64,000 nucleotides of DNA from Margaritifera margaritifera. Lineage: Eukaryota > Mollusca > Bivalvia > Unionida > Margaritiferidae. Under the pieces are notes generated by a model. The model had not been told where the DNA came from, made no database searches, and saw nothing but the letters and a program-made list of their open reading frames with translations. The translations under genes and the position numbers were made by a program. This document shows, piece after piece, positions 1,927-57,800 of the stretch (its first letter is position 1; every line of letters begins with the position of its first letter). The stretch lies in NCBI GenBank assembly GCA_029931535.1, contig JAQPZY010001569.1, positions 775,001 through 839,000 on the forward strand. The letters are read 5' to 3'.

Positions 1927-2048
1927 ACTTTGGTAGCAGAAACATTAATTCTTGCAAAAACACACGGCTATGTTGAAAAGATAGAAAATGAATTGGAAGA
2001 GGAGTTACAACGCGACAGTGATGAACAACCTTCCACTAGTATAGCACG
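1927..2048 (+). CDS. Hv1-like exon: cytoplasmic N-terminal segment
   Basis: The acceptor is TTTATTTCAG at 1,917-1,926. The exon encodes an acidic helix-prone stretch (ending EDEQPSTSIAR-like residues before S1; key run IENELEEELQRD). The donor is placed at CG|GTACTC because the split Arg codon (CG+A) then joins the next exon in frame. The donor itself is weak and runs straight into a (TC)n tract. There is no in-frame ATG, so this is not the first exon. Confidence 0.65.
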
Positions 2049-2096
<48 letters not shown>

Positions 2097-5000
2097 CGTA
2101 AGAGTACACGAATCCCTGCTTTGACCTTTACATTGAACAGCTATTTCCTAGATGAGACTAGGGATTTCTTTTGTACCATTTAGACGTCTACACAATTTCC
2201 AACAGCTTTTAAATAATTTCCTGTATTGCTTAAAAAACCTCCTAAGTTGAGCAAAGCTTAGTTTAAATGGTATATTTCACAAGCTAAAACCATTCGGTCA
2301 TAATGATTATAAATGTAAATTTTGTAATTCCATCAACGAATCAATATTATATTATGCCTTTAATCTAGCTATCATATTATTACATTTTGATGATATATAT
2401 GAATAACATCAGTTGAAGCCCACACACAGAAACACAAATTTCTTTGTAGGATACAGTTCTTTGTTATCATAGTGCAATCTATATTTGCATCCTCTACAAT
2501 ACTCAGTAATTACGAAATGTTTGTCCGTTGTAGCAAACCCCGAATTAGTAAATTGCATTATTAACTTTCAGATGGAGAAGAAAAGGTGACAAGATATTCA
2601 AGAGCAAGTACATGCTGTTGACTGTAGTCATTCTTTGTGTCACAGACTGTGCCCTAGTCCTCGGAGAATTGACCCTTGACCTTCACAAGGTCAAAGGTAA
2701 AGAGATTATCTTTTACGAAATCAGCTAAAACATCTAATTCGCTGAACTCAAAGGAAAGTGACTATATAAATTGAAAAAAGACATGACTATTTTAGAATAC
2801 TTTTATCATATGTAGTTTTCCTCAAAGTAGTTTTCACGATTTACATAGCTGAATATTGTTGTATACAGTACGTCTGCTATTATCCAGGTAGCAAATACTT
2901 TGAAAAGAGTACACTAAATTATTGGAAATTAGATTGTCAATCTAATTTGGCTTTGCTCTTGCAATAAACATCGTCGCAAGTGTCAATCGAATTTGGCTAT
3001 GCTATGACAATAAACATCATCGCAAGTGTCAATTTTTACCTTGAAATTTAATTATCAAACTATTTCGTCAAATAATGTCTCTGCTAATGAAACAATAAAA
3101 GATTGAAACTTATCTTTGGAATCTTATTGCGTGCAACTTACAACTTCTCTTTCTATTTTGAGCTTTCAATACGAGGCGAAATTATTTGCTGATGGAAGAG
3201 GTTTTTCAGATAAATGTAGATTTAATTTACAGGTGAGAAAGAAGACGAAATGAAATATAATTACTCGGCTGTTGTACAAGGAAGTTAATACATAGATAAC
3301 CCCAAGTAAAAAAATCAATATGTCATGTGACAAAGCATATTGTTTGCATCACTTCAGGGAAGATACATGGAAGTTGAAGATGGAAAAAGATAAAAAAATG
3401 TTCAAAAAAGTAATGCGTATGACCATGACACGTTCTAGTTCATACATTATTTTTTACAAGTTATAAAAGAAAAAATACAGATGCCAATAAAAGAAATGCA
3501 TGGGTCACATGCACGAAAGTAACTAGATATAACATTTCTTCTAGATACAGTGTATGAAACGTATAAAGTTGGTCACGTTTACCAAATTTAGGCAAAGTAA
3601 TATTTGTTTATTTATTAGTGTATCAAAGTGAGTCAGGGGCTACAGATAAATTTGGTTTCACGTCAGAATACGCCCGAGTGTACGAGGTATAGATCAAAAC
3701 GCGAAATTTTAAAACTTTGTCCTAAAAGGGTGAAATGTTGTTCAAAAATGGCCCATTAATAAATCATTATTGAGCTATACCTCAGGATGCATGTTCATGT
3801 CACGTATTTTGTCGGCAGAGGAGAGAATGATATATCGATCTAATTGCAAATCTTTAAACTGTAATACGACATTGAGAGACCGACTTCATGGGATCTTAGT
3901 AAAATACCTTGTAGCATCCTTGTAAATATTAATGTTAATGGCCGTTGTGTCTATAGTATGGGGTAGTCTAACCATAACGTTGTGTCTATAGTATGGGGTA
4001 GTCTAACCATAACGTTGTGTCTATAGTATGTGGTAGTCTAACCATAACGTTGTGTCTATAGTATGGGGTAGTCTAACCATAACGTTGTGTCTATAGTATG
4101 GGGTAGTCTAACCATAACGTTGTGTCTATAGTATGGGGTAGTCTAACCATAACGTTGTGTCTATAGTATGGGGTAGTCTAACCATAACGTATAAATCTAA
4201 TGTCGACGTCAGGCAAAATAGTTGCTTGCGCCAAATTGCTCTAGTATGCTAATATTGTACATCTCAGTTAAGGTATATGTCAAGTTTCAACACCAGACAG
4301 ACAAGTAGTAACACTGATCTGAATTAGGTGCAGTAGCTTTGAATCCTCACACAGCAAATTTATTGAGAGCAGAGGCAACAGTGTGAGAATACATATCTAT
4401 AGATAATAACAGCAACCCACTTATGGTACAGTGGTTTTGTACTTCTAACTACGTCAAGTTTAAACACTACTGAGGCAAAGTATGAGAAATATATGGATAC
4501 CAATGATAAAAAAATAGTCATTAGGAGGTTAAACAAAAGGTTACTATGTCCTCTTTTGGGACATATGTGAAGCTGATTACACACTAACAACAAGCACAAA
4601 TCACTTGCATGACAGTAGGAACAAAACACCGGATGGTACGGACCGAAACAATAAACAGTAACAAAACACCGGATGGTACGGACCGAAACAATAAACAGTA
4701 ACAAAACACCGGATGGTACGGACCGAAACAATAAACAGTAACAAAACACCGGATGGTACGGACCGAAACAATAAACAGTAACAAAACACCGGATGGTACT
4801 GACCGAAACAATAAACAGTAACAAAACACCGGATGGTACGGACCGAAACAATAAACAGTAACAAAACACCGGATGGTACGGACCGAAACAATAAACAGTA
4901 ACAAAACACCGGATGGTACGGACCGAAACAATAAACAGTAACAAAACATAATGTTTTACAACGTCAACCGAAAAAACCCGTGTTACTCTGTATCAGACAA

Positions 5001-8000
5001 GAGCCAGTATATTCGACATCAACAATAAGCGCTAGAGTCATTTTTTGTTAAGTTTAATTTATCAATTTCTTTCTTGTTTTTACCAACACTACTGCAGATT
5101 CTTTCACTGAATCACTCTGTCGCGCGTGACTTCTTCTTCCGAGCACTTGCATTTGCTAGGCATATACCTGGGTGTGTTGGCTAAGCCAGATGTACATACA
5201 CGATTCTGCGTTAGATACAACATGCAAGCCGCATGATAATGTATTGGTAATGATGCAGAAGAATAATTTTGCTTGTTTCGAGTATTAGTTGTTGTTGATG
5301 TTGTTGTTTTGGGATTTTTTGTCTGTGCTTTACACGCACTAAACACTATTTCATGTTTTCTGCTGAAAATAACATTTTTTTGTTTACAGTTACTCTGGAG
5401 GACACGAATTTATTGATATCAGCAACAGAAGATTTCCTGTGGGAAATTGAGAAAATTTTCCCGAGCATGCCCAGAGGCTCCCCATCTGATATATTCAAAA
5501 TGTTACTGGACATGTCAACAAACTGGACTATTGCATGGAACAGTAATACGTTGGAATCTGTCAATTATTCTACCTGTTCAGTATTCCGTAACGATGAATC
5601 ATCGAGGGGAAATAATTCTAACGGATCTACTACATTTTTAAGTAGGACATCTGGTATTGGCGGCAAGTCCAAACATAATGCAAAGGAAAAATCGATTCAG
5701 GAGAAAATAGCGTATGCTTTTCACTACTGCAGTATAACAATTGTTGGAATACTGGTTATAGAGGTATGTATATTTGTTGGAATACTGATTATAGAGGTAT
5801 GCATATTTGTTGGAATACTGGTTATAGAGGTATGCATATTTGTTGGAATACTGATTATAGAGGTATGCATATTTGTTGGAATACTGATTATAGAGGTATG
5901 CATATTTGTTGGAATACTGGTTTTAGAGGTATGCATATTTGTTGGAATACTGATTATAGAGGTATGCATATTTGTTGGAATACTGATTATAGAGGTATGC
6001 ATATTTGTTGGAATACTGGTTATAGAGGTATGCATATTTGTTGGAATACTGATTATAGAGGTATGCATATTTGTTGGAATACTGATTATAGAGGTATGCA
6101 TATTTGTTGGAATACTGATTATAGAGGTATGCATATTTGTTGGAATACTGATTATAGAGGTATGCATATTTGTTGGAATACTGGTTATAGAGGTATGCAT
6201 ATTTGTTGGAATACTGATTATAGAGGTATGCATATTTGTTGGAATACTGGTTATAGAGGTATGCATATTTGTGCGTAAATCTTTATTTTGCCATTATTTG
6301 GGAATCAATATAATCATGGTACCAGAATCCTGATATTGGAGAAACGAACTGGACATTTTCGTTTCCAAGGTACATTGAATTTTTTTTTTCTTTTTTCCAT
6401 TAATTGCATTCTTCTGTTGATATAACTCAGAATCTCCTCATGTTGTTTTCTTTTACACATGTACACGATCATCTCTTGGCGACATTAAACAGAGGAAATA
6501 AAACAGTATTATTAGTAAAAATAGAAGTCTGACCTATTTACAGTATTTAAATGTGTATGTATGTATTTTAGAAGTTAACAACGCTTATTTTCTGCTGAAT
6601 GTTTAAACTTGATGCTGTAATAAACGTGATCAAATGAGGTTTCAAATGTGACTGTGAAAAATGGCTATCGTCGCTTCCATGTTTTTGCTGAGTTTTTGCA
6701 CAGAGATAAAACTAAAACTGTACTATGAAAATTGAAAAAAAGTGAGTTAGACTGGGAATCCGACAGAAATCATATTTGCTTTTGCTTGACAATTTTGGAT
6801 GATATAAATGCAGTGCACCTGTGTTGCGAGATTTTTTCAATCATGCCTAATACACCTCAGACGCCACTAGTTGTCACTTGTGTAATGCGATGCCAATAAA
6901 ATGATTTATATCCATGTTTGCAAATTGTTATGATAACACCATAGAGCACTTGTTCGCCCATGCTATTTTCAAGTGCTATAAACGATTCCCTCACTAATGG
7001 TTATCCCATTAACCGTCTCAGAAGTGGTAGTTAATGACTTTGATATTGTGATCGTGCCATAATCGTGACTACTATTGTAGAAAGAAGATATTAATTTCTC
7101 CAAGCTAATTCATCATGCATGAGTCATAACATGATCCAGCATAATGTCATATACGCTTGCATCCCCAGAAAAATCTTTCATGATTTAGATATAGCAATTT
7201 CGTCTCTTTTTTATAATAAATACAAAAAGGACTGCAATAAATCTATCTTCATTCCAGGATTCGCAACACCAGAACAGGGTAATCGAAATGGAATAAAGCA
7301 TTTTTGTTTGTTATGCCTTGGACAAGGTTTTCTGGTTCCTTTTCAAATCGTTCTGGTGTGGGCGAAGTATACAACTCACATACCAAGTATTACAATTAAT
7401 TAGGTGTGTGCGGTTTTTCCGGTATATCAGCATGTTGTGGAAGGGATCCCGTACCGCGGTACATTGTATTGAACTGGGTTTTGAGGTATTTCTAGAAATA
7501 TTATACAACTAACATTTCTACTTCAACCTTAATTTGTTTGTTTTAATTGTTTTCTTTTTCAATATCTGCAGTTCTAATACCCCACAAATATTTGTGAAAG
7601 ATGCGTCCGCACAGAAAACTGTTGAACTGCACGTTATATCCCGCCTGGCGGACATGGAATTCAGTGACGGCGCGAGGGTTCGAGGCGCCCGGGGGCAATG
7701 TTCTTCAGTCGCGCCGCTACTGAGGCGCCCGGGGGCAATGTTCTTTAGTGGCGCCCCTACTTTGCCACAGAGAACAGTTTTTATGTCAGTTGCCAACCTC
7801 CATCATACGCACCCCCCCCCCCCCCATCTAAGCCCTCGTTACAGCCAAAAAAAAACACAAAAACACACACACACACAAATAAATCACGACGGCGCTACCT
7901 CGCTCGGCGCCAGTGAGGAATTATCCCCCCCCCTCGCGCCACCACTGGTGGAGTTTGATGTCTTGTACGAGCTGGTGCCGAATAAAAAGGCAATATTACT

Positions 8001-11000
8001 TGTCTGGCAGTATTTGTTAACGAACATTCACCCTTGCCATTTCTCTGGAATAGAATGCGCTGGTGAAGCTCGCGGGTGGGATTACGAACTTACCTGTCCC
8101 CGTCTGCTGACATAATCTCATCCTACAGTCTGTTGGAAATAGGCTAATACCGGCGTTTGTTCGCGATAATTATGTATATGAGCTATTATATTAGTGCTGA
8201 TGACATAAGTATCCACCATTCAGGCAGCTCTACATCCACTGTCAAGTATCATCTTCAGACCGACGTTGAGTCTGTTCAAAAGTGGTGTACGAAATATAAA
8301 ATACACATAAATCTTTCAAACACTACTTGTATGACAATTTGCTCCACTCAGAAACTGTCGACAATTCCAGCACTCAAATTTATGCTCAATGACTTTGAAC
8401 TTGTCTCGGTATACTCTAAAAAATTGCTAGGTATCTTCATTTTGGACACCTCAGTTAATCATATTTGTATTTTACTGAGTAAACAGATTACACTTATATA
8501 AATTCTTTCAAATTATGTTTCTGTCAATATTCTTAAACTATGTAACAGTAGCTATATATTATTAATTTTAGATGATGGGTGCACCATTTCGGGATACTGT
8601 AGTATTGTCTTCGAGACAAATTACGAGTAGACCGGTCACATTTTCGTTCGGCAGGCTGTTCAAATCTTATATAAAAATGCCCAATGTGTATCCCGCACGT
8701 CCATACACCATGTAAAGATTTATTTTTGTATTCATAATAGAGTAGTATCTGTACGGTGATATATCAATAATCAAAAGAAATCTTATCCTCCATGTCTTTA
8801 TAAAACCTAGAATTCTATTATTGTTCCCACCCCCACCCCCTCGTTGCATGTTTATCTCGTACATGTAATAAGAAATACTTGTTCTTGCAGATTAATCACT
8901 TCAGCAAGCTGATGTTTTGATGAACACCAAATGGCCATCATCATACGGATTTCCAGATCACTTTTATTGGCCTCAGTAGTATCCAACCATTCTTTATTAA
9001 AATCTTCTTGACCTATATTTTATTACTTTTACAATATACAGTAGCATCGCATCGTTCATGACTCCTTGATTAGCAATTGTCATATCCAGCAAACTTTATA
9101 TCTAATTTCAAGACTAATTTCCAACATTTAAAACTTATTTGGAATGAACGGATATTATCTTCTCTTCTCCGTGCAGATAATTGTGCAATTTTAGATCAAT
9201 TTCTGGTTCACATGCAACCTCTGCAAATCACAAAATAAGGAAACCAAAAGAATGATGGTCTTATCGATTGGTCCCTGGAGCGGCTAATAGATTGAATTCT
9301 TTCAGCAAGCTTGGAAAATAACCAGTACTATAGCTTTTTTCCAGTTGTTTGATAGAAACGAGTACAAGCATAAATAATTAAAGTTTTTGTTTCCGAGAAA
9401 TACATTTCAATTTGCGTAAAAGTCTGGAGATAGGAACTCTACAATGAATGCAAGAATGAATGGCCTCTACTACCAAAGGTAAATGTAATCAAGAATGAAC
9501 GGCCTCTACTACCTAAGGTCAATGTAATCAAGAATGAATGGCCTCTACTACCAAAGGTAAATGTAAGCAAGAATGAATGGCCTCTACTACCTCAGGTCAA
9601 TGTAAGCAAGAATGAATGGCCTCTACTACATAAGGTCAATGTAAGCAAGAATGAATGGGCTCTACTACCTCAGGTCAATGTAAACAAGAATGAATGGCCT
9701 CTACTACCTCAGGTCAATGTAAGCAAGAATGAAGAGCCTCTACTACCTAAGGTCAATGTAAGCAAGAATGAATGGGCTCTACTACCTCAGGTAAATGTAA
9801 GCAAGAATGAATGGCCTCTACTACCTCAGGTCAATGTAAGCAAGAATGAAGAGCCTCTACTACCTAAGGTCAATGTAAGCAAGAATGAATGGGCTCTACT
9901 ACCTCAGGTAAATGTAAGCAAGAATGAATGGGCTCTACTACCTCAGGTCAATGTAAGCAAGAATGAATGGGCTCTACTACCTCAGGTCAATGTAAGCAAG
10001 AATGAATGGCTTCTACTACCTAAGATCAATGTAAGCAAGAATGAAGAGCCTCTACTACCCAAGGTCAATGTAAACAAGAATGAATGGCCTCTACTACCTA
10101 AGGTCAATGCAAGCAAGAATGAATGGCCTCTACTACCTAAGGTCAATGCAAGCAAGAATGAATGGCCTCTACTACCTAAGACCAATGTAAGCAAGAATGA
10201 AGAGCCTCTACTACCTAAGGTCAGCAAGAATGAATGGCCTCTACTACCTAAGGTCAATGCAAACAAGAATGAATGGCCTTTACTACCTAAGGTCAATGTA
10301 AGCAAGAATGAAGAGCCTCTACTAACTAAGGTCAATGCAAACAAGAATGAATGGCCTCTACTACCTCAGGTCAATGTAAGCAAGAATGAATCGCCTCTAA
10401 TACCTAAAGCCAATGTAAGCTAGAATAAATGGCCTCTACTACCAAAGGTCAATGTAAGCAAGAATGAATGGCTTCTACTGCCTAAATTCAATGATTACGG
10501 AGATAAAAGATGTACGAATAAAGCTTTGAACTGTTATTATTATTATTATTACGTAATCTTAATAAAGCGTTGCCCATCATATAATATACAAAATAATACA
10601 CACAATCATCGAGAGAAATTCACAAAGCTAAAATTTAGTTTGTTTCTTCAAGTTCGGACTCAACGTCTACAAACTTAGACTGACATTGAGTATTTGTTTG
10701 TTATTCTGATTTAATTTTACTTCTTTTCAGACAATATTAAAGGCCTTTTCTTCTGGTCATTCCTTCTTCCATAGGAGACTTGAGGTAAGGGCTGTCATAC
10801 TTTCAACCTTTGCGGTTTTAATCTTATAATAGAGTTAACGTCGAGATGAATCACTCGTCATAGACGCATACCGTGTCAGCCGGTTTATTTTGCTTATTGC
10901 AAAACCGACATCTCGCTCCTGCGTATAAGAAACGATCTGAGAACAAATCATAACTTTTTAAAATTCACAGCATTAAACACATGGAATGGAAGGTTGGCAC

Positions 11001-14000
11001 GCCCGACGTCTATGATGAGAACTTCATCCGAATGTTAACGTTATTTCTGCCAAGAGCTTAACGAATAAAAATGTTTTGGAGTATTTCTGATCCACCCAAA
11101 AGTGCTGAGTATTACCACATTATACACCTACTTCCGACGAATTGTATCATTCTTCATCGTTCTCTTAAAGACATGCATACACGTTTATAGAAATAAGCAG
11201 AACAGGAAACATATCGACAAAATATATTAAGAATTATTTTGTCCTGTCTACCATTGTCAATGTCTCGAAATTATCAAACTATACCTTGAAGATGCCTAAT
11301 GATGATTATCAAACATTACCTTGAAGATGCCTAATGATGATTATCAAACTATACCTTGAAGATGCCTAATGATGATTATCAAACATTACCTTGAAGATGC
11401 CTAATGATGATTATCAAACTATACCTTGAAGATGCCTAATGATGATTATCAAACTATACCTTGAAGACGCCTAATGATGATTATCAAACAATACCTTAAA
11501 GATGCCTAATGATGATCATCAAACATTACCTTGAAGATGCCTAATGATGATTATCAAACAATATCTTGAAGATGCCTAATGATGATCATCAAACATTACC
11601 TTGAAGATGCCTAATGATGATCATCAAACAATACCTTGAAGATGCCTAATGATGATTATCAAACAATGGCTTGAAGATGTCTAATGATGATACCAAATAC
11701 ACTTATAGCTGTTACAGAGGCAAGATATGCAGAAATGAAGAACTTATAAAGCTTGGGAATTTTTCAAGTTAAAACTTAAGCAACTGCAATGGCTCGCATT
11801 GCAAACTCCTCACCCATTACACTGCCCATTCTACCCCCCTCCACTCTCCGTACTCACCTCACCCCCCTTGACAGAGACTCGTGGGTTATAAATGCAGAGT
11901 ATGTCACCTATATATGCATGATGCGCACTCCTGATACAATTGGATGTATAAAAGTTTAGTTACAAAACATTTGAAAATGTCATTGGAATTGGCATTTTTT
12001 TATATTTCACCTTTCACATCCTCACATGGACCCCAGGGGCGGGAGCTGAGAATAGCACCACTGTTGCAGATGGTCACCACAGGGGCAACATAACTACAAA
12101 GTTTTGTGAAATTGCACACAGCGGTGTAGGAAATGTGGCAACGAACAGACTAGCGAACGGACAGACGGAAGGTATCAGAATATCCAGGACACTTTTTAAT
12201 AATAGGGACAAAACTCAAGCCAAATTTTTGTTTCTAAAATTTGCTAACATAATAGCATTCTTACTGCAGGTCTTATGCAAAAATTCTGAATAATAATTGT
12301 ACTTATACAATTATATTTTATTCTACGGCAGAATGATTTCGTTTCGTATACAAAAAATTCTTCTGAAAAAAAAGTTTTTAAGTATACTTGAGGACTGAAA
12401 AATGTATCTTATGACATAGAAATCGCTAAACGGGCACTGTGTAAACGATAAAATATACCAGATTTAATAGACACATCATCTTCAGCTTATATCAATTTTA
12501 ATGTTGCACGTCCCTCACAACTTTAGTAGGTTACTAATGGCAATTAGAGGCTTCATTTAACCGATGCAGATAAATCAAGAGATTGCAACGTGTATTTTTT
12601 CCTCTTTCTTTGAGTTTAAGACTTGGGCGTTACAAATGATTACTTTAAGACTTGGACATTACAAATGATTATCTTTAGGACTTGGACTTTATAGATGATT
12701 ATCTTTAAGACTTGGACATTAGAGATGATTATCTTTAAGACTTGGACTTTACAAATGATTATCTTTAAGACTTGGACATTACAAATGATTATCTTTAAGA
12801 CTTGGGCTTTACAAATGATTACCTTTAAGACTTGGACATTACAAATGATTATCTTTAAGACTTGGACATTACAAATGATTACCTTTAAGACTTGGACATT
12901 ACAAATGATTACCTTTAAGACTTGGACATTACAAATGATTATCTTTAAGACTTGGACATTACAAATGATTACCTTTAAGACTTGGACATTACAAATGATT
13001 ATCTTTAAGACTTGGATATTACAAATGATTATCTTTAAGACTTGGACATTACAAATGATTATCTTTAAGACTTGGACATTACAAATGATTATCTTTAAGA
13101 CTTGGACATTACAAATGATTACCTTTAAGACTTGGACATTACAAATGATTATCTTTAAGACTTGGGCTTTACAAATGATTACCTTTAAGACTTGGACATT
13201 ACAAATGATTACCTTTAAGACTTGGACATTACAAATGATTATCTTTAAGACTTGGACATTACAAATGATTACCTTTAAGACTTGGACATTACAAATGATT
13301 ACCTTTAAGACTTGGACATTACAAATTATTATCTTTAAGACTTGGGCTTTACAAATGATTATTTTTAAGACTTGGACATTACAAATTATTACTTTTCAAG
13401 CTCATAGTTATCTGAATTCAACCAAAAATATTCATTAGAATGATCATGAAGAGTGGTATATCTAACAATTGCAAGATTAATTGGTGTCTTCTGAGTTAGA
13501 TGTTATCAATGTAATAGTTTGAAGCAAAGGTATAAGAAAATGTTTCGAAGTTGATAATATGGGAGACTAAGAAATAAACAAAAGATCCTACAAAAGATCA
13601 GGTTAACTCGAATTTTTTCTATTTAAAATCAAATTCAACTGCGATATGATTTATATGATTTTAAAATCAAATTCAACTGCAATATGATTTATAAGATTTT
13701 AAAATCAAATTCAACTGCAGTATGATTTATATGATTTTAAAATCAACATGTTATTATTTTCAAACTGTGGATTCCACACAATATTTGAATTTCTAGTTCA
13801 GTTTCCATTGTCTCTGACAATATCTTTTTAGCTTTCACTTTGATAGTATGAGATGGACTGATAAAAAAGCATATTTAGAGAAAGGCAAACCTCAATGTCA
13901 TCAGACACATGAGTCGTATATTTCCAACGAAAAGCGTCGTTCGAAAGAAGTTTCTTTGTGTAGGCTACATAATACACTATAGTGGTACCTCTGACAATAT

Positions 14001-14800
14001 TTCTTTGCTATAGGGATCACAGTGCGATTTAAACGTACATAATTTAACAATAGCATTTTTTGATAAGAAATCTTTTCTGGTCAGTAATTTGCCAGATAAT
14101 TATTGTCTCCGATTTGCACCAAGGATGTAGCCTTCTTGGATGGCACAAGTTAAAAATATAACTGACTTTAGATGGAAGAAAATATTATCCAGCAATTTGT
14201 AAATTTAATAGAAAATAGAAGTTGATGATAATGAACGGGAAGTGCGCAGGACATAGACAGACCCAACAGATTAATTGCACAGGATCCATTAAAAGAAAGA
14301 TATGTTAAAAACTCTCGAAGTTAATGTTAGGTACATAATTTAGGTTGTCTGACTTGTACGTGGAGGGGTGGGGTGGGGTCGGGTGAATGGAAATCACTGG
14401 TAAGATTTACGCTACAATAAATAAATAAAGAACCAAAAATAAAGAAGCAATAAAAATAAATAGTTAAATCACAAGCATTTCGTATTGTAAATTAAAAAGC
14501 AATAAAGAAAGATGAAATAAAAAGGCAAAATAAATAAAAAAAATAATTCATTAAATTACAATTATTTATTCTCAGAATATATGTTGTCAATGATTATGTA
14601 TTAACGCTTGCAATTTTTTTTTAAGGTATTTGATGCTTTTACTGTGATAGTTTCCTTCCTTACCGATGTCATCTTTATAGCTTTTCTGCCAACAATCGAC
14701 ACCACAGATTTTGTATTCATCTTGACATTGCTTCTCCCATGGAGGGTTATCAGAGTTGTTAACAGTAAGTCAATTATATCTATATCTATCTATCTATCTA

Positions 14801-14878
<78 letters not shown>

Positions 14879-16038
14879 TTTATTTATTTATTTGCATAAC
14901 AAATTCTTCTTCTTAGACTTGGCATTAGGCAAACGAAACTTTATTTACAAGTTTTTTAGATAACGAGAAGCTGGCAATATTTTTGCCTATTACAAAATCA
15001 AGAACAGAGGACGCAAACCGAGCTGTCACCAATGAATTTGCAGAGGTTTGACTGACTTCGATGCAATTCACGTCTGAAGATGTCTCATCATTTTGGCAGT
15101 GGATTATATAAAAGTTATATAGATTCAAAGACTATGATCTATATGATAGTTATGAGTCTATTTCATTCAAATAGATTGTACGTCAATTGTACATATCGAG
15201 AACACAGCTCTTTATTAGATGAGAAATTCGCTCCAACGTGCAAGATCAGCAATATATGCGAGTAGTTTGGAAATATAATTTTTCTCATATCTTTTCATTT
15301 TAGGTTTGGTAGTAGCAGTGAAAGATCACGAACATTTTCGGCTGAAACTCGTGTACGGACGGAAGAAAAAGATTCAGAACAACTTGCGAGATACAGAAAA
15401 CCTTATGCATAAATACAGGGTAAGGCGAGAACACAACTGGATTATGTCACATCTCATTATTTTATAAGTTCCGAAAAAATAGAACACCAATGTGATAAGG
15501 AAATCAAAGTTGAAAGAAGAGAGGAAAATACTTACAATAAAGCTTCTCAGCATAAATAGACATAAGAGTTACAAGTATAACTTTAACTTTGAAAATCAAT
15601 AAGTTCACCCCATTGATTCCCCAGAGTAATAACTATCAGCAGAAGCAAAATGATTAGTTTTTCAAACTTGTAGAAAGCTCAAGGACATCTTTTCCCTTAT
15701 AATGTAGATAGGCACATATTTTTATACTGTATTTATAGCTCTATTGCTATTGGTATTTAGATAGGCACATATTTGTATACTGTATTTATAGCTCTATTGC
15801 TATTGGTATTTAGATAGGCACATATTTTTATACTGTATTTATAGCTCTATTGCTATTTGTATCAATAGCAAAGAACATGAATTTCTGCGTAAAATATTAA
15901 CAACGTGTACATAGTTTTCAAACCTTGTATACAAGTGAAGATACTTTGATTCTTGTAATTGGTAACATTAATTTTCCTATCTTATGCAACTGTCTATGTC
16001 ATGTGCAGATAATTAGGGCTTTCATAAAATGCCCAGAT

Positions 16039-34400: not shown

Positions 34401-37400
34401 GTTTTACTTGACTAAAGATGAAACCTGAACTCACACATACGATGACTAAATTTGATTTTTTCCAAAACTGTCATTTAAATAAATGGCACATTCATTAACA
34501 TTATAACATGATTAAAAAATCAGAACCAACATAAATATATAATTATATAAATTTAAAGTCACAGACGCATAAATGTTTTGAAAGCGGTCTTATTCAATTT
34601 CATCAACTAATCAACACATAATTTTCTCTGTATAAAATGTACGCAGTCTTGTAACTGGGCCAGCCACATAATTTTCATCATACTTTACATCCGCAAACTT
34701 GTAATCATCTGCACTAAGCCATACAAGAAATTTACATTTGCTAAGTCCAGTGCAAAACATTGTCAGCTGTATTTGCATAGGGCCTCTATGCCCTTTCTTC
34801 TTAAGAATCAGACTATCACTGTCATTCTTTTGGACATTATGTTTCTTGTTTGAAACAAATCATCCAATGTGGTCCAGTTAGTAGGTACTTGACTTTTAAT
34901 TTCAAGCAGCGTGTCTCCATTTAAAATTCCATCTTGGCTCGCTGACAACCAGTTTTCCTGAACAGAAACATACATTCCTTTTTCAATAACAGAATATCCA
35001 TTAGACATTAAATACTGTTTTGATGCCACTTCACTTTGAAGTCCATGGTTTGTGAATTTATTTCCTACAAATTTGAAAAGTAAAATGTTCTCTTATAAAC
35101 TTTGTGCAATCAGTGGAATCCTTTATGACAATTTTGTGCGAACTGCTTGCAGTAATACTGATTTTCCTTTCATCTTTCCATAGGGTACTTTTACTTTGCA
35201 TCATTGTATCATTTTACAATTTTTCAGTCTGAGTATTGTCAAGATTTACATATTTCCTAAAGAAAATTGAACCTTTTTCACAAGATGTCAGCAAATCTTG
35301 ATTACTGTGAGCTTGCACAACAGTTGGTGTGCTTGTAAAACTCTTATGTATTGTTGTTCTCTTGATCTCGAACAAGGGTAATAACGGTGAATTTTGAATC
35401 GCACTATTAAATTCAGACTCTCACAAATACGTTGGAGTGCCTCGTACACCTGGAGCAAATTCATCATCATTGTTGAACATATCTGCACTAAGTTTAGGCT
35501 TTTTGAACAGAATATTGGTCAAAGTCTTAGGCTCAGATTTTCTCTTGGAACCACTGTCCACTTTCCTGTCTCATCTGTGCAACTTACGCCAGTTAAACTG
35601 TTCCTGACAGCGTGCTCAGTTTTCCAGAGTAAGGCGCCAGCATGACTGCATGCCATGCAGGAACACCATCCCAATTCTATGGTTCCATCCATGCTACAAG
35701 TAACGTAAGCTACGTTTTCCTTGTTGATACTCTGAGAAGAACATACATCTGCTTTCAGGATTATTTTGTTGTCCCTCACACGCTATGTAAAATCCTGTCA
35801 ACATTGCCACATTGAAAGTAATTGTAGCTTAGCAAACTTTTGTAGTTTTTCATTTCGCCTCCATTTATCGCTTTTGACGAAACCAAAATAATTGTAATAG
35901 TCACTGTACATCACATTTGGCAACTTTGTCATGTCGTCTATCCATTTCGTTAGCTTACGAAAATCCAGGGGCATTGAACTTTTTACTTCTGTAGTCGTTG
36001 TAGGCAATTGTATTGATTATTTGTACGGACTGATTCGCTTTGTTTACGTTCTTTTTCACTACTGATTTGACGGACGCTACTGCAACGCACCTAGCGAGCA
36101 ATATGAGTACAACGGGCGATACTTTTAAAAACGTGTCTATACCTGAGAGAGTGGATAATATCATTTAAAATCAAGCATGTCTAAACATAATGATGTCGTT
36201 GTTAATATGTTGTTATTGTGTCGCTATTGTGTTCTTATTTTTACATTATCTTTTTAATATTACAAATTTACAGTTTTAATAGCCTCTAAAACACCATAAA
36301 ATCTCATTCTTGGATACCTCCAAACATATCCGTCTTGAGCCTCTAAAACACTACACAATCTCATTCTTGAACCTCGAAGACACTATAACATATCATTCTT
36401 TACACTCTAAAACACTATAAACATATCATTCTTTACACTCTAAAACACTATAAACATATAATTCGTTACACTCTGAAACACTATAAGTATATCATTTATT
36501 ACCCTATGTGACTATGTATTGTATGAGAGCATTCATCTCAAATTCTTGGTCTGATAAATCTAAAATTTCTTTCTGTCTTTCACTTTCAATGTGTCTATAG
36601 TTCATTATAATAAAATATGAATAAATGTTTACGTCTTTTAAAAACTCAACTTAATAATTCTATTTTATTTTAAATGTTTCTTCTTGGTAACTACATAATG
36701 ATGACATAATAACGACATCATTATATTCGAAACTACTTAATAATTCTCTTTTGTATTGAAAAAACTAATTATACTAATTGTTCATTTGCATCATTTTTTG
36801 TGTTGTGATGGCTGGATTTCGGCATCAGTTATTTGATCTTTTTAAAGGTTGCATTTCATTATCACTTTTTGTGTTGTTGTGATGGTTTCTGCTTGGTAAC
36901 TATTCTTTTAGGTTAGTTGTAATCTGGTGGTAATTTATATATGTATTCAAACTTGTATGATTTAATATTCGCTTTTGATTGTAGCTTAGTTTCTCAGACA
37001 CTATCGCCTTCAGTCATTTAACTTGGTACGTAGATGCGTACTGAAGAGTACCACATCTTAAAGTCAACACTAGGTCACTGTGGCCTATAGTTAACACTCG
37101 AGTATTTTCGTGTTATTTCTCAACTAAATAATTTGTTTTCTGTATTGTAGATGCAGGTGACTACACTGCAGAGGTTGTGTCTAATGGAAGGTATAGACGA
37201 GTGGAAAGTTGATCAGACTTTAAAAACGGAAGATTCTACGCCCAGTAAGTTACATTTATATTCTCCTGTTCCGAAAAGATTGCACAATTTCTCTTCTTGT
37301 GAAAGAATTCTGCAGTATTTTGAAGTTTAAAATCTTTAATACATAACGCATTCTTTTCTAACATATTGATCTAAATGTTTTAAAAAGACATTGCTTAAAA

Positions 37401-39121: not shown

Positions 39122-39837
39122 TGAATGGAAGGCCTCAAAGGAGAATAGTTTTTTACTGAGTGACCTCACATGAATGAAACATTATTCTTCTTCTTATTAT
39201 TATTATTATTTCTATTTTTATAATTTATTCTTTTTTCATTGCAGTTACACCTAGTAAAAAGAAATTTAAATTCCGTTTTGACGATGGATATTCAATATTC
39301 GATAGAGGGGGCCGTTCTCAGCGTTGTTCTCTACCATCCCTTGATGTGCAAAGTGTCAAACTTCAGAACGGCGCCATAGGAAAACAGCGGAGTTCTCTCC
39401 CTTCTGTAGCTCTTACCACATTGAAACACCATTTCTCAAAAAGTGGGGGATCTTCTCTAGGGAGGAGAGCCTCACTGGCAAGTGTAGAAGTTTTCAATGT
39501 TAAATCTGCAAATGGAGATATTCGAAAGAAACAAAAGACCGGTTCTGAGGACTTAGAAAGTATGCCTGAGGATCACGTGCTGGAAACGTATAACTCTTCT
39601 TCGTCCATTGCTACCTCGGCCTCAAATGACAGGGAGGTTTTTACAAGGACTACCATCAATGCTGGATCCAAATTGAGACGGACCTCGGAACCGGCAGACG
39701 TTGGTGGCCATAGAACGGAGAGCACGTCTGATACGGACTCCACAACAGGCATACAACCTCGAAGAATCGTATCCGATTCCGACTGCAAAGATGACGTAGG
39801 AATAAGGACTCCTTGTTTTGACATTTGTGACGTGTAA
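1927..39837 (+). CDS. Hv1-like voltage-gated proton channel, 8 exons, 5' incomplete
   Basis: Joined exons give at least 538 codons with consistent phase at all seven junctions. The protein should be a four-helix voltage-sensor proton channel in a membrane. With human Hv1 numbering in brackets, I see S1 D66 (D112), E73 (E119), D77 (D123); S2 H194 (H140), E207 (E153), K211 (K157); S3 D228 (D174), D239 (D185); S4 W264, R265, R268, N271 (W207, R208, R211, N214). The first S4 arginine (R205) is Leu262, followed by Pro263, and the charge-transfer Phe150 is Leu204. S1-S2 is an unusually long loop (about residues 83-190) with four N-glycosylation sequons. A coiled coil follows S4, as in dimeric Hv1, then a Ser-rich tail of about 200 residues with RRAS-type kinase sites. 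The start codon is not seen. A TMEM266-like non-conducting relative is the alternative. Confidence 0.85.
2051..2095. repeat. (TC)n microsatellite at an exon donor
   Basis: An uninterrupted CT/TC tract begins four bases inside the intron after the predicted donor. Its pyrimidine-rich transcript is a possible binding site for PTB-like splicing regulators (inference). Confidence 0.9.
2572..2696 (+). CDS. Hv1-like exon: S1 helix
   Basis: The acceptor is TTAACTTTCAG and the donor AAAG|GTAAAG. The exon encodes a basic stretch (WRRKGDKIFKSK) followed by S1, with the pattern D-x-A-L-V-L-x-E-L-x-L-D-L. The first Asp of that pattern is the selectivity-filter position of Hv1. Entry phase is 2 and exit phase 1. 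Confidence 0.9.
3944..4188. repeat. 35-bp minisatellite, 7 copies
   Basis: The unit starts GTTGTGTCTATAGTATGG and ends TCTAACCATAAC. Copies start at 3,944, 3,979, 4,014, 4,049, 4,084, 4,119 and 4,154 and are nearly identical, with one G/T change in the third. Confidence 0.95.
4621..4948. repeat. 40-bp minisatellite, 8 copies plus a partial
   Basis: The unit contains ACCGGATGGTACGGACCG. Copies start every 40 bases from 4,621 to 4,901 and are almost identical; one has T for G near 4,800. Because 40 is not a multiple of 3 and the unit lacks minus-strand stops, long minus-strand open frames arise in all three frames. They are not genes. Confidence 0.95.
5390..5763 (+). CDS. Hv1-like exon: S1-S2 extracellular loop and S2 helix
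   Basis: The acceptor is TTTTTTTGTTTACAG. The exon encodes a long loop of about 105 residues with sequons NWT, NYS, NNS and NGS, then S2 (FHYCSITIVGILVIE). S2 keeps the Hv1 His140 and Glu153 positions but has Leu where the Phe150 charge-transfer residue is expected. The end is set at the first of 16 tandem donors (GAG|GTATGT), because exit there (phase 0) joins the microexon at the position expected from Hv1. The first donor ends GTATGT, the later ones GTATGC. The reading frame stays open through all 16 repeats to 6,333, so longer S2 variants are possible. Confidence 0.88.
5742..6269. repeat. 33-bp minisatellite containing the 5' splice site, 16 copies
   Basis: The unit runs from TGTTGGAATACTGG to GCATATT. 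The first copy starts at 5,742 inside the S2 exon and spans the exon-intron border; copies follow exactly every 33 bases. Each carries GAG|GTATG. In the channel frame each unit encodes 11 hydrophobic residues (VGILVIEVCIF or with I/L changes) without a stop. Confidence 0.97.
8157..8501 (+). pseudogene. LINE reverse-transcriptase fragment
   Basis: A 114-codon open frame contains SADDISIHHSG, matching the YADD-type catalytic block of non-LTR reverse transcriptases (Tyr changed to Ser). VQKWCTKYKIHINLSNTTCM and KLLGIFILD follow in the order expected downstream of that block. The 5' part of the element is missing and the 3' part has decayed. AATAAAGC and a TTA repeat at about 10,520-10,550 could be its 3' tail, displaced by the minisatellite (inference). 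Confidence 0.75.
9439..10490. repeat. 39-bp minisatellite, about 27 copies
   Basis: The unit contains AAGAATGAATGGCCTCTACT and CAATGTAAGC. Copies differ by scattered changes (GGCC/GGGC/AGCC; CTAAGG/CTCAGG/CAAAGG). The array ends about 240 bases before the 54-nt microexon. Confidence 0.95.
10731..10784 (+). CDS. Hv1-like microexon: end of S2 to start of S3
   Basis: This 54-nt exon (18 codons, TILKAFSSGHSFFHRRLE) is flanked by TTACTTCTTTTCAG and GAG|GTAAGG. It starts and ends in phase 0 and fits exactly between Glu207 of S2 and VFDA of S3. Lys211 matches Hv1 Lys157 (4 residues after Glu153), and the final Glu matches the position before the S3 hydrophobic-Asp-Ala motif. Length agrees with Hv1 without gaps. 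Confidence 0.88.
11270..11690. repeat. 35-bp minisatellite, about 12 copies
   Basis: The unit contains ACCTTGAAGATGCCTAATGA followed by TGATTATCAAAC. Copies alternate between ACTATACC and CATTACC versions, so a two-unit higher-order repeat is visible at the start of the array. Confidence 0.95.
12614..13396. repeat. 30-bp minisatellite, about 26 copies
   Basis: The unit contains TTTAAGACTTGGACATTACA. The period is a multiple of 3, so a 247-codon frame made of a 10-residue repeat stays open (12,695-13,438). It has no flanking splice sites or homology and is best treated as a repeat artefact. Confidence 0.95.
13615..13745. repeat. Short tandem repeat, 3 copies of about 40 bp
   Basis: Three copies share TTTTAAAATCAAATTCAACT followed by GC-ATATGATTTATA. 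They sit in the intron before the S3-S4 exon. Confidence 0.9.
14626..14764 (+). CDS. Hv1-like exon: S3 and S4 helices
   Basis: The acceptor is TTTTTTTTTAAG and the donor AACA|GTAAGT. S3 is VFDAFTVIVSFLTD and keeps both Hv1 acidic positions (174 and 185). S4 reads LLLPWRVIRVVN: Trp and the second and third arginines are kept, but the first gating arginine is Leu, followed by Pro. The S3-S4 linker is three residues longer than in human Hv1. The exon exits in phase 1. Confidence 0.93.
14779..14876. repeat. (TATC)n/(TA)n microsatellite
   Basis: TATC repeats pass into a long TA tract 15 bases after the S3-S4 exon donor. Confidence 0.95.
15304..15419 (+). CDS. Hv1-like exon: post-S4 linker and coiled coil
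   Basis: The acceptor is TTTTCATTTTAG and the donor AGG|GTAAGG. The exon encodes 39 codons (starts SLVVAVKDHEHFRLK) that follow the S4 Asn, as NGIIISVK does in Hv1. A charged heptad-like stretch (GRKKKIQNNLRDTENLMHKY) suits the dimerising coiled coil. The exon enters in phase 1 and exits in phase 0. Confidence 0.88.
15706..15865. repeat. 53-bp tandem repeat, 3 copies
   Basis: Each copy contains AGATAGGCACATATTT and TAGCTCTATTGCTATT. Copies are nearly identical. Confidence 0.92.
16040..16102. repeat. (TA)n microsatellite
   Basis: This is an uninterrupted TA tract of about 60 bases. Confidence 0.95.
16500..16655. repeat. GC-rich dispersed repeat ending in (TAA)n and poly-A
   Basis: GCCCGAGGGGGTCG and GCCCGAGGGCGAAG are two near copies of one motif, followed by TAATAATAATAATAA and about 29 A. 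The A-rich 3' end suggests a retroposed (SINE-like) copy, but no RNA polymerase III box is clear. Confidence 0.4.
17336..17398. repeat. (GA)n microsatellite
   Basis: This is an AG/GA tract of about 60 bases with one GTGA interruption. Confidence 0.95.
19532..19582. repeat. (TA)n microsatellite inside LINE copy 1
   Basis: A TA tract with one TATG interruption lies in the former endonuclease region. Confidence 0.92.
21647..21713. repeat. (TC)n microsatellite
   Basis: This is a pure CT/TC tract of about 66 bases near the 3' end of LINE copy 1. Confidence 0.95.
23473..24092. mobile_element. Foldback / MITE-like element inside LINE copy 2
   Basis: The two ends are long imperfect inverted repeats of about 150-170 bases. 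The left arm reads TAAGGTTTATGTGCCCTTCT, then GACTTCCAACGAGTACAGCA and TGATAGGAGTACCTAGATTA. The right arm carries their reverse complements (for example CTAAGTACTCCTATCAG and GCTGTGCTCATTTGAAGTC). There is no coding sequence. It lies within the LINE endonuclease, so it is younger than that copy. An A-run of about 31 bases follows the right end. No clear target duplication was found. Confidence 0.8.
24093..24132. repeat. Poly-A tract
   Basis: About 31 consecutive A directly follow the foldback element. Confidence 0.9.
25205..25500. repeat. Tandem repeat, 3 copies of about 110 bp
   Basis: Each copy has AGAAATAGTTTG followed by AATTA-CACAGG-CGAGGACT and ATGATATATTCATAT. Copies are diverged. 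Confidence 0.85.
25620..25652. repeat. Poly-C/poly-A tract
   Basis: About 10 C are followed by about 19 A. The arrangement is like that at 1,664-1,697. Confidence 0.9.
25710..25925. repeat. 31-bp minisatellite, about 7 copies
   Basis: The unit contains CTACATATATGTACAGAATT followed by AAATACTATCT. The last copy is shortened. Confidence 0.93.
26860..28245. repeat. Degenerate 30-45-bp tandem array
   Basis: Dozens of diverged copies share TTATAGTGTTTTAGAGGGT and GAATGATATGTTT. The same motif occurs in the opposite orientation at 36,285-36,500, so the two arrays bracket the polymerase pseudogene and the ISL2EU-like element. Confidence 0.85.
28386..28458. repeat. (TA)n microsatellite
   Basis: This is an uninterrupted TA tract of about 70 bases. 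Confidence 0.95.
28740..31010 (-). pseudogene. B-family (protein-primed type) DNA polymerase pseudogene
   Basis: Read on the minus strand with several frameshifts and stops, the order of motifs is that of the DNA_pol_B_2 family. An N-terminal region comes first. The exonuclease I block follows at about 30,550-30,520 (YADFE within VPFIIYADFE), and then the block around 30,115-30,150 (YGLDPAHYFSSPG). An 87-codon open stretch (29,930-30,193) ends with KANNPIVRGYDKSKP. Further down is a catalytic-block remnant at about 29,150 where the expected acidic pair is damaged. Such polymerases occur in Polinton/Maverick elements and adintoviruses. No integrase, ATPase, protease or capsid gene was recognised nearby. 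It lies antisense in the channel intron and is inactive. Confidence 0.82.
31011..31730. other. AT-rich DNA, nothing recognised
   Basis: Short minus-strand frames (31,111-31,308 and 31,474-31,755) are rich in Phe, Leu, Ile and Tyr, as expected from AT-rich DNA. I recognise no family. 31,020-31,120 contains a short inverted repeat of AAAATTCAACTGAA type. Confidence 0.5.
31733..32180 (+). repeat. Left arm of a ~450-bp inverted repeat
   Basis: The arm begins AATCATACAAGTTTGAGTAC, runs through ATTACCACCGGGTTACAAC and ATGATGTCATTATTATGTCA, and ends near ACCAAGAAGTTTAGATGAAT. It matches the reverse complement of 36,520-36,965 over almost its whole length with moderate divergence. One frame at the start is open (KLPPGYNTLKRIFIRKKPPQ) but I recognise no family. 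Confidence 0.85.
32181..32500 (+). other. Short unassigned open stretch
   Basis: 32,240-32,394 encodes one open stretch (EQYRKDQQDMLYKHPAMKYI, then a Ser/Asp/Glu-rich end and a stop). It may be the C-terminal remnant of a transposon- or virus-derived protein, but no family is recognised. 32,501-32,660 shows nothing further. Confidence 0.3.
32660..34141 (+). pseudogene. THAP + DDE transposase pseudogene (ISL2EU / PIF-Harbinger superfamily)
   Basis: A THAP-like zinc finger comes first at about 32,672-32,960. It starts CSINGC and keeps VCSKYF and the end motif region in shifted frames. A polar linker follows (32,988-33,188). Next is a helix-turn-helix domain (33,319-33,642; DDLSRRFGISRSLACKIFNS) running into the first catalytic Asp (SLIIDCA). 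After a broken 200-base stretch, the second Asp (IMADCG) and the Glu (HVERAIRRLNVFRIL) are in 33,849-34,142. All three catalytic acids survive, but stops at about 33,186 and 33,640 and frameshifts break the gene. The product would have cut and joined transposon ends. It faces the YqaJ-type gene at 34,600-36,160 tail to tail. Confidence 0.85.
34600..36165 (-). pseudogene. YqaJ-type nuclease with SWIM zinc finger, pseudogene (ISL2EU second gene)
   Basis: Minus-strand pieces line up from 36,164 down to about 34,600 in different frames. An N-terminal region (35,798-36,164; WIDDMTKLPNVMYSDYYNYF) comes first. A SWIM-type finger at 35,519-35,779 has C-x-C then C-x-H (WCSCMACSHAGALLW). A YqaJ core follows at 34,808-35,029, with the pattern ASQDGI then LLEIKS, which supplies the Asp and Glu-x-Lys of the PD-(D/E)xK fold. 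Frameshifts near 35,795 and stops at about 35,290-35,480 make it inactive. A YqaJ nuclease beside a THAP/DDE transposase is the known gene pair of ISL2EU transposons, which supports both calls. Confidence 0.8.
36285..36500. repeat. Inverted copy of the 26.9-28.2-kb tandem motif
   Basis: About six copies share CTCTAAAACACTATAAACAT followed by ATCATTCTT. They are the reverse complement of the unit in 26,860-28,245. Confidence 0.88.
36520..36965 (-). repeat. Right arm of the ~450-bp inverted repeat
   Basis: The arm runs from ATTCATCTCAAATTCTTGG to AAACTTGTATGATT. Its reverse complement matches 31,733-32,180, including the ATGATGACATAATAACGAC segment and the ATTACCACCAGATTACAAC segment. Confidence 0.85.
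37151..37244 (+). CDS. Hv1-like exon: C-terminal coiled coil, second part
   Basis: The acceptor is TTTTCTGTATTGTAG and the donor CCCA|GTAAGT. The exon encodes MQVTTLQRLCLMEGIDEWKV and continues to a Thr/Glu/Asp-rich end. Hydrophobic residues at heptad spacing extend the coiled coil of the previous exon. It enters in phase 0 and exits in phase 1, matching both neighbours. Confidence 0.82.
37590..37735. repeat. ~42-bp tandem repeat, 3 copies
   Basis: Copies share GAAAAACAGTCATATA-ACAAGGGAACAAATAGAA. Confidence 0.9.
37790..38226. repeat. 43-bp minisatellite, about 10 copies
   Basis: The unit contains GGTAATCTAAAGAGATATCA then TCGTTATAACCATGACTACT. One copy carries an internal duplication of TTATAAC (about 37,950). 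Confidence 0.95.
39031..39114. repeat. (TA)n microsatellite
   Basis: A TA tract of about 80 bases with a few TTT and ATG interruptions lies 130 bases before the final exon. Confidence 0.95.
39245..39837 (+). CDS. Hv1-like last exon: long serine-rich cytoplasmic tail
   Basis: The acceptor is TTTTTCATTGCAG; the stop is TAA at 39,835. The exon encodes 197 residues. It begins with a basic patch (ITPSKKKFKFRFDDGYSIF), continues with Ser/Thr-rich low-complexity sequence, and contains basophilic-kinase sites (RRASLASV, KLRRTSEP). It ends FDICDV. The frame is set by the split Ile codon with the previous exon. The tail is much longer than that of vertebrate Hv1, which stops soon after the coiled coil. 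Its role is unknown; phosphorylation control or targeting is inference. Confidence 0.85.
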
Positions 39838-54860: not shown

Positions 54861-57800
54861 GTAAGTATCGATGTATTTCACTGTTTCTTAACTGTCATGT
54901 AAAGTAAGACACGTAAAGCAAATGTTTATAAATCAGGAATTGATTACTTTAACTTCATTTTTGAATGCATATTTATCTTTTGTTTACGTTTTAATAGTCT
55001 TATAGACATTTTAGAGGTGGGAAATACAAAAGGTACGCCTTATTTGCAATTCGTTAAGAAGCCATTTCTCAGAGACGCAAGGAACAAAAGGCACGCCTTT
55101 TTTGCGATTCGTTAAGAAGCCATTACTCAGAGATACAAGGAACAAAAGGTACGCCTTATTTGCGATTCATTAAGAAGCCATTACTCAGAGATGCAAGGAA
55201 CAAAAGGTACGCTTTATTTGCGATTCATTAAGAAGCCATTACTCAGAGATGCAAGGAACAAAAGGCACGCCTTATTTGCGATTCGTTAAGAAGCCATTAC
55301 TCAGAGATACAAGGAAAAAAGGTACGCCTTATTTGCGATTCGTTAAGAAGCCATTACTCAGAGATACAAGGAACAAAAGGCACGCCTTATTTGCGATTCA
55401 TTAAGAAGCCATTACTCAGAGATGCAAGGAACAAAAGGCACGCCTTATTTGTGAATTGTTAAGAAGCAAGTTCTCACTCGATTTTGTTCCGCAAATACTA
55501 TTTAGCTTATCGTATACTGTAAGATCTTTTCTTATCTTATATGAAGCCAGTACATGCAATCTCGTGATGCATGCACATCCAATGAAAATTGAGATAAGTA
55601 TGTGAAATCAATGTATGTATTGAAATAGTTATATGAGTTATGTTGGTAAATGTAGTTCACATTTGCGACTAAACTTTCTGTAGAACGAGCTTACGTCATG
55701 ATGTATTCCCATAGACTGATTATCCATATTTCTTTCTCTCAAACTGAAGGAGACCTTTACGGCCCATCCACCATATTTTATGGAATTCATTCTAAATTTG
55801 AAGTCTGTTAAGATATCTTCACCACTACGTTTGTAACGTAGTGAAGAAAGCAGGGTACCGGACTATATGATATATAGGTACATAACGGACGAACTCGGTC
55901 TGCCCAGTTGTCGGTATACAAACTATGTTTGCCCTACACAATTAAAAGAAAATCAAAATTGATATACAATCTTTACATTTACATAAACTTATAAATCCCA
56001 CAATTTATTTTTGAACATAGTGTGACATGGATAGATTCTGGGTGTAATTTGAAGCAGAGTCTTGGCGCCCTCACCGATGTGCTGTTCAAGATGAATTTGG
56101 ATGTCATTTTCGGGCCACCTTGTAGTGAAGGTACCACATTTTAAAAATATGTATCGCTTTAAAGTAATTCTTCACTGTAGAGAAATATTTCGAGTACTGA
56201 TACTTACCATGATGTGTTCATTAAAGGGAACAAACATGTATACATACGTGTCTTTTAGCTCAAAACGGGACTTCATAATTGGTAGCATTAGTAAAATGGT
56301 GGCTTCCATGAGCAGAAGTTTGTTTATACATATTAATTCCATATTTAATTTCTAAAAAGGTATGTAATTCTAAATATAATTATTACAAGTGTTTGTGTTG
56401 GAAACTTTGCATACCATAACAAAGAATTATGTATAAAATCTCAAAACAGTGTATTATGCAAGAATATCACATTGTTAGATTAAGAAAATGCAAATTATAC
56501 ATAATTACTGAAAACACATTTACGCTATTCAGAAAGACTAGTTATCATCTAGTTGTACACATTCAGAGTGGATATTTATAGACTGGTACCGCTTTACCCT
56601 CGTTATCACTAACACCAATTTCCTCGTCCAAGGTGTGCAGAGTGTAGGTGAGTTGATGTCCTACAGGAACACAACCATTATCAACTGGGTGTCCACGGGA
56701 CAGACAATAGACTCCCGCTTCAATATGGACACCTACATCCAGCTGATGCCACCTATATCATCTTTAGGTAATTATCTCAAAGACAGGCTAGTCATCTCAG
56801 GCCTTAAATTAGTAAATCTACAGGTAATTATCTCAAAGACAGACAAGTCATCTCAGGCAATGAATTGTTAAATCTACAGGTAATTATCTCAAAGACAGGC
56901 TAGTCATCTCAGGCCTTAAATTGGTAAATCTATAGGTAATTATCTCAAAGACAGGCTAGTCATATCAGGCCTTTAATTGGGAAATTTTCAGGTAATTATC
57001 TCAAAGACAGGCTAGTCATATCAATCCTTGAATTGGTAAATCTACAGGTAATTATCTCAAAGACATGCTAGTCATATCAGGCCTTAAATTGGTAAATCTA
57101 CAGGAAATTATCTCAAAGACAGGCTAGTCATCTCAGGCCTTAAATTGGTAAATCTACAGGTAATTATCTCAAAGACAGGCTAGTCATCTCCGGCCTTGAA
57201 TTGGTAAATCTACAGGTAATTATCTCAAAGCAGACAAGTCAGCAAAGGTCTTGAATTGGTAAACCTTTCAAGACTGAGACTTGGTAATAATTGAGTGTAA
57301 TTTGAAGCTCTAATTACTTTGTTTGCATACAATATTCTTGCAAATTTGAACATCTTTACTTCTGTGAAACTATTTCTTCTAGCGTAGGAGTTTAGAGTAA
57401 GAGTCCGAGTCTCTTACTTGGAAAAATATATGAATTCCAGGCCAAGTTATCTAATTTAGAGGCACGAATATTTGCAAGGTTAAATTTGAGTATGCTCTAA
57501 ACCAGCATTATTCCCGCGCTTTTTTCCATTTAACTCTACCAGCCCTCCCCGCCCCCTACCACTCCATTGCGCGCACACACACACGAAACACATATGCATA
57601 TAAGTACTCCCACCACATCAAAGAGCTACGCAACCATTTGATGGATCCAAATTCTGAAAGCGTTGTGCACATCTAGGGACCACTCGCAATTATATCCCAA
57701 GGTTTTAAATCTCGGTCTCAAACGGTGTACGAGAAGTTACGTGACATAACATACGCACGTACGTCCGGACGGTCAACAATAATAGAATCATTCATATGCA

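Follow-up and report, generated by a model that had tools for sequence, protein, structure and literature searches.

A 33-bp minisatellite with sixteen in-frame splice donors at the S2 exon edge of a putative HV3-type proton-channel gene in Margaritifera margaritifera

Analysis of a 64,000-nucleotide window of the Margaritifera margaritifera genome (the whole stretch of DNA that was analysed) showed that one exon of a gene resembling, by its sequence, the HV3-type molluscan proton-channel genes ends inside a 33-bp minisatellite. TRF and a unit-by-unit list confirmed the claim of the initial annotation that sixteen GAG|GTATG donors stand there in tandem. The array is probably a neutral minisatellite that captured the exon-intron junction, with the first donor doing most of the splicing; we infer the donor usage, the origin of the array and its neutrality from the evidence presented below.

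Gene organisation and channel type

Six exons with GT-AG ends on the forward strand joined into one open frame. The N-terminal cytoplasmic exon (TLVAETLILAKTHGYVEKIENELEEEL..., 1927-2048) was placed by exon joining and tblastn, and the S1 exon (2572-2696), with an Asp aligning with the Hv1 selectivity Asp, by tblastn and profile alignment. The S2 exon (5390-5763, 374 nt), placed by tblastn and by its acceptor and donor, contained the long S1-S2 loop and the first part of S2, with a Glu codon last. It was followed by a 54-nt microexon of phase 0-0 (10731-10784) coding for the remainder of S2 and the S2-S3 loop (TILKAFSSGHSFFHRRLE), an S3-S4 exon (14626-14764), and a post-S4 exon (LVVAVKDHEHFRLKLVYGRKKKIQNNLRDTE, 15304-15419), the last two placed by tblastn and exon joining. 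A C-terminal exon region (37154-37252, tblastn) and a stretch weakly similar to the homologues' C-terminal tail (39256-39408, tblastn, E 0.03 and 0.06) were located on the same strand, both with approximate ends. The S1, S2 and S3-S4 exons were first matched with a human Hv1 query. Of 400 stop-free AG..GT candidates, the microexon had the best score against Hv1 guide peptides, and it was backed independently by the homologues, which read E-TILK...FFHRRLE-VFDAF. Both the proton-channel identity of the gene and the microexon, as initially annotated, were upheld by the exon scan and the homologues.

The available text of PMC10377628 gives the HV3 class an xPWRxxR motif in S4, a very large S1-S2 loop and much larger intracellular domains, and describes a characterised member, AcHV3 of Aplysia, with a proton leak in the closed state. 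The S4 motif was found in the mussel exon 14626-14764 in the form LPWRxxR (LLLPWRVIRVVN), and about 100 residues preceded S2 in the S2 exon. A profile built from 36 of the 52 relatives matched the Hv1 chain 5oqk_A of the PDB (3.9e-17) over the voltage sensor with the S1 Asp aligned. The LPWRxxR motif, the long S1-S2 loop and the S1 Asp are shared with AcHV3; unlike the mussel gene, AcHV3 is described in that text with no mention of a repeat at the S2 exon end. Pfam Ion_trans was found in 16 of the 36 profile members, and was absent from the S2 exon and from the joined window protein, where Pfam gave nothing credible. The S2 exon alone gave one chance match against solved structures. N- and C-terminal parts of the relatives, which are 380-530 residues long, were matched in the window, the gene model here being partial; SCPIRLRRQ, the tail of the Potamilus model, had no strict match in the forward-strand frames of the window.

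The 33-bp array at the S2 exon edge

In the one assembly analysed, TRF placed the array on the forward strand at 5741-6272, with a period of 33, 16.1 copies and 97% matches. Each unit combines 23 nt from the end of the S2 exon with the first 10 nt of the intron, in that order, and carries GAG|GTATG. The first unit is GTATGTATAT and units 2-16 are GTATGCATAT; as the initial annotation had read, the donor is GTATGT in the first unit and GTATGC in all the others. Besides this difference at donor position +6, variation between units was limited to G or A at unit base 15 (in order, copies 1-16: G A G A A G A A G A A A A G A G) and one A>T change in unit 6. The C at +6 creates a self-complementary palindrome, TATGCATA, at donor positions +2 to +9 of each of copies 2-16. 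The tetramer TTGT stands at both ends of the array (5741-5744 and 6269-6272), suggesting an origin of the first duplication between these two copies.

The donors cut after 5763, 5796 and so on to 6258, and all sixteen are in phase 0, as is the microexon that they would join; the frame set by the donors contains no stop, in agreement with the initial annotation. Donor 1 lies at 5764-5769 and donors 2-16, one in each 33 bp, at 5797-6264. Every extra unit would insert the 11 residues VCIFVGIL(I/V)(I/L)E, with a mean KD of 2.9; with one unit added, 22 instead of 7 windows of 19 residues exceeded KD 1.6. The array is open in two of the three forward frames and in one reverse frame.

Homologous proteins and the donor giving the family protein

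The protein search gave 52 relatives, and those with a species name were all molluscs. The closest was from Potamilus streckersoni (Unionidae), with 85% identity over 67% of the query, and its gene model appears to leave the exon directly after VIE. This hit points to a unionid freshwater mussel or a near relative as the source of the DNA. A script found that the distance from the Glu position to VFDA was exactly 18 residues in 41 of the 52 hits. Two of these (P0041 and P0051) were not homologous upstream and were dropped, leaving 39 relatives that span the junction. An insertion at the S2-microexon junction was found in none of the 39, so it is donor 1 that gives the spacing of the family protein. 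Among the 7998 scored candidates with the most shared words, a read-through query returned the Potamilus protein only, and no array-bearing protein.

The S2 Glu at the exon end (5761-5763) was present in 28 of the 39 spanning relatives, while eight had Gly; the six of these eight with names were octopuses or an argonaut. The microexon was absent from the gene models of Mytilus edulis (P0019), Pinctada imbricata (P0027) and Dreissena polymorpha (P0052), either through an annotation slip or through real in-frame skipping, the latter of which would shorten S2.

In the AlphaFold2 model of a scallop homologue (P0002), which has a mean pLDDT of 66 overall and of 80-92 in blocks across S2, this helix runs from residue 212 to 242 and the Glu is residue 234, so added units would sit inside the membrane helix. 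The exon does end in the array, as had been claimed for S2, but by this model the junction lies within S2 and not at its end.

Donor strength and predicted RNA folding

Calculated pairing with U1 in register was -8.8 kcal/mol for donor 1 against -4.1 kcal/mol for copies 2-16, and the PWM scores were 8.88 and 7.42, respectively. When the best duplex was taken, the values were -8.8 and -5.8 kcal/mol. By best duplex, copies 2-16 fall within the range of the six donors of the gene (-4.3 to -10.1), whereas in the fixed register they are weaker than all six. Other forces would favour the donor nearest the acceptor, here copy 16. Experiments with duplicated sites are reported to favour the proximal donor, and among donors of similar strength there is a general preference for the intron-proximal one. 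In the available part of a published account, intron-proximal donors are promoted by SRSF1 and intron-distal ones by hnRNP A1. Recursive splicing through the AG|GT of the units was considered and set aside as weak: pyrimidines make up 47% of the stretch before that site, compared with 65-82% at five of the gene's acceptors.

Folding of the real array predicted an unpaired fraction at +1 to +6 of 0.28 for copy 1 and a mean of 0.027 for copies 2-16. The predicted mean of the copies was 0.24-0.25 when +6 was U, A or G, and C alone closed the donors; the direction of the effect did not change at 15 C or under another set of energy parameters. Among 75 single-base changes, none of them in the donor core, the U>C change at +6 hid the donors most (0.030), followed by A>C at unit base 8 (0.041); the +6 test was chosen post hoc and concerns one base.

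The controls were mixed. For folding energy, 88 of 150 tiled shuffles were equal to or better than the array, which is thus not unusual among tandem repeats, and the idea of a fold special to it was rejected; of plain dinucleotide shuffles, only 2 of 100 were as stable (z -2.5). When the donor core was kept, 9 of 40 shuffled units hid the donor equally. The predicted working donors of the gene were themselves 0.04-0.29 unpaired, with an opening cost of 3.1-11.6 kcal/mol; among 60 random GT sites, 5 had an unpaired fraction of 0.02 or less. Copies 2, 3, 8, 15 and 16, calculated in the same frame as the working donors, were 0.005-0.07 unpaired at 6.9-7.9 kcal/mol, which is low and not disqualifying. 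In model arrays, the open fraction of donor 1 was as low as 0.09 for a single copy and 0.08 for three copies, at which length it was the most closed donor; with two to five copies the later donors were partly open, and long arrays were closed except at their edges. These predictions are suggestive of a self-pairing of the copies that hides donors 2-16. The view of the initial annotation that the first donor would be favoured agrees with the calculated U1 pairing and with the predicted accessibility in the real array, though not with every model array, the three-copy one being an exception.

Minisatellites in the window and chance expectation

With a period of at least 20 and at least three copies as criteria, the window (1-64000) contained 20 separate arrays, which made up 10.7% of its bases; over 1927-15419 the coverage was 26%. 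When the arrays were rotated over 1927-15419, a mean of 3.2 of 12 exon edges fell in an array and at least one edge did so in 91% of rotations; over 1927-39840 the mean was 1.7 edges, with at least one in 72%. One exon edge actually lies inside an array. Given the 26% coverage and the 91% of rotations, chance alone would be expected to place an array on an exon edge here.

The open frame and the 33-bp period, to which the initial annotation had pointed, turned out to be ordinary: the period was divisible by 3 in 4 of the 20 arrays, and the intronic arrays at 9442-10493 and 12615-13395 are for the most part crossed by long open frames as well. Selection to keep the frame open was rejected, since other frames of the array and the intronic arrays are likewise open.

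Donor-like sites with a score of 7.4 or more were present in 4 of the 20 arrays on the forward strand, the 33-bp array included, and in 2 of the 20 on the reverse strand, the forward-strand background being 1.55 such sites per kb. By TRF and donor scan, a second minisatellite of the same intron (9442-10493, forward strand, 39 bp x 27) had 21 of them; it stops 237 nt before the microexon, and the S2 junction is not the only place with splice-like sites in tandem. The arrays at 55026-55467 (58 bp) and 56766-57263 (56 bp) had 4 and 8 donor-like forward-strand sites, respectively, at the same score.

Discussion

A human minisatellite providing multiple splice donors, that of IFI6, was reportedly published in 1995. 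Its in-frame units stand at the exon end and are 12 bp long, coding for 4 residues each, whereas the mussel units have 33 bp and 11 residues and lie inside a molluscan voltage-sensor helix. Like IFI6, the mussel gene has a minisatellite at an exon end, a donor in each unit and a unit that keeps the frame (33 bp, phase 0, no stop). The mussel array is of the IFI6 kind in a new place; the difference at +6 between copy 1 and the other 15 is its own. In the available text of PMC4526556, downstream repeat units of IFI6 act as donors and three mRNAs are produced, the 130-residue form being predominant. In human segmental-duplication genes, minisatellites at exon-intron boundaries, with units of 30 bp on average, alter exon and intron length and splicing; the available part of that account (PMC2812944) deals with exon elongation and intron formation between paralogues and makes no mention of donor arrays in one gene. 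A family of prawn lectins with coding repeats of 30 and 33 bp was set aside, the accessible text of PMC7536079 not mentioning donors in the units, and the intronic minisatellites of earthworm metallothionein genes, as described in the accessible text of PMC12783039, were set aside as a parallel. Among the open-licence papers searched, no report of a donor array in a proton-channel gene was found, and no single paper contained both 'freshwater mussel' and 'voltage-gated proton channel'.

The proposed course of events is as follows. A 33-bp stretch across the S2 exon end would have been duplicated, probably between the flanking TTGT repeats, and would then have grown to 16 copies through slippage or unequal exchange, as with the other arrays of the gene. 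Donor 1 would remain the main donor and give the ordinary channel, being preferred because of its better U1 pairing, its earlier transcription and the C at +6 of copies 2-16. That C would weaken U1 pairing, and the palindrome TATGCATA may let the copies pair with each other, hiding their donors. Since the unit is 11 codons long, a slip to a later donor would add 11-residue hydrophobic units in S2 without a frameshift; such longer products should be rare and, for the most part, without function.

The initial annotation had offered two readings, a system of variable length that lengthens the membrane helix or an array of decoy splice sites, and the decoy is the better half of that offer. A channel in which several donors are usefully used, S2 being longer by 11, 22 or more residues with altered gating or a dominant-negative effect, would fit the sixteen phase-0 donors in an open array, the strongly hydrophobic unit, the position of the junction inside S2 in the scallop model, and the use of downstream units as donors in IFI6 (available part of PMC4526556). 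It is nevertheless unlikely and found no positive support, as no insertion occurred in the 39 spanning relatives, no array-bearing protein was present among the 7998 top candidates scored, donors 2-16 are weaker and predicted to be hidden, and the openness and period are ordinary here. The reverse preference, for donor 16, would make a product with 15 additional units (165 residues) the usual one, disabling the channel or lowering functional output. The general intron-proximal preference and the balance of SRSF1 and hnRNP A1, in the available account, speak for it; the greater calculated strength of donor 1 and the intact, conserved state of the remaining exons speak against it. The 130-residue form of IFI6 is the shortest one. 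With the predominance of that form in the available text of PMC4526556 also counting against it, regular use of donor 16 is judged quite improbable.

Two further explanations concern the C at +6. A self-silencing donor array, in which this one base makes copies 2-16 pair among themselves and hide their own extra donors, is considered improbable. At the level of the DNA, the palindrome may have made the units with C prone to slippage, so that only those multiplied and donor hiding would be an unselected by-product. The C stands in all 15 extra copies and not in copy 1, and tandem arrays are frequent in the gene; the link between palindrome and slippage is, however, an assumption, and we hold this explanation to be possible, if doubtful, noting that it is compatible with the neutral capture of the junction and that the confidences given to the two overlap. 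An assembly artefact, with the copy number inflated or collapsed or the array derived from a pseudogene, is very unlikely: near-identical 33-bp copies (97%) are hard to assemble and one assembly was used, but the irregular order at unit base 15 would not arise from simple stutter and the six exons are intact with their splice sites. The neutral capture of the junction, with donor 1 as the main donor, is the reading preferred here.

The array offers a natural test of how one donor is selected by the spliceosome when sixteen near-identical ones follow each other at a constant spacing of 33 nt. It also raises the question of how a gene survives a fast-changing repeat on a splice site, to which the in-frame unit, the stronger first copy and possibly RNA self-pairing may contribute. 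If self-silencing were true, the S2 form with 11 added residues would be more abundant in mussels that carry short alleles than in those that carry long ones, and the balance of donors could shift with temperature. If the longer forms are made, the mussel would have a voltage-sensor helix that varies in 11-residue steps.
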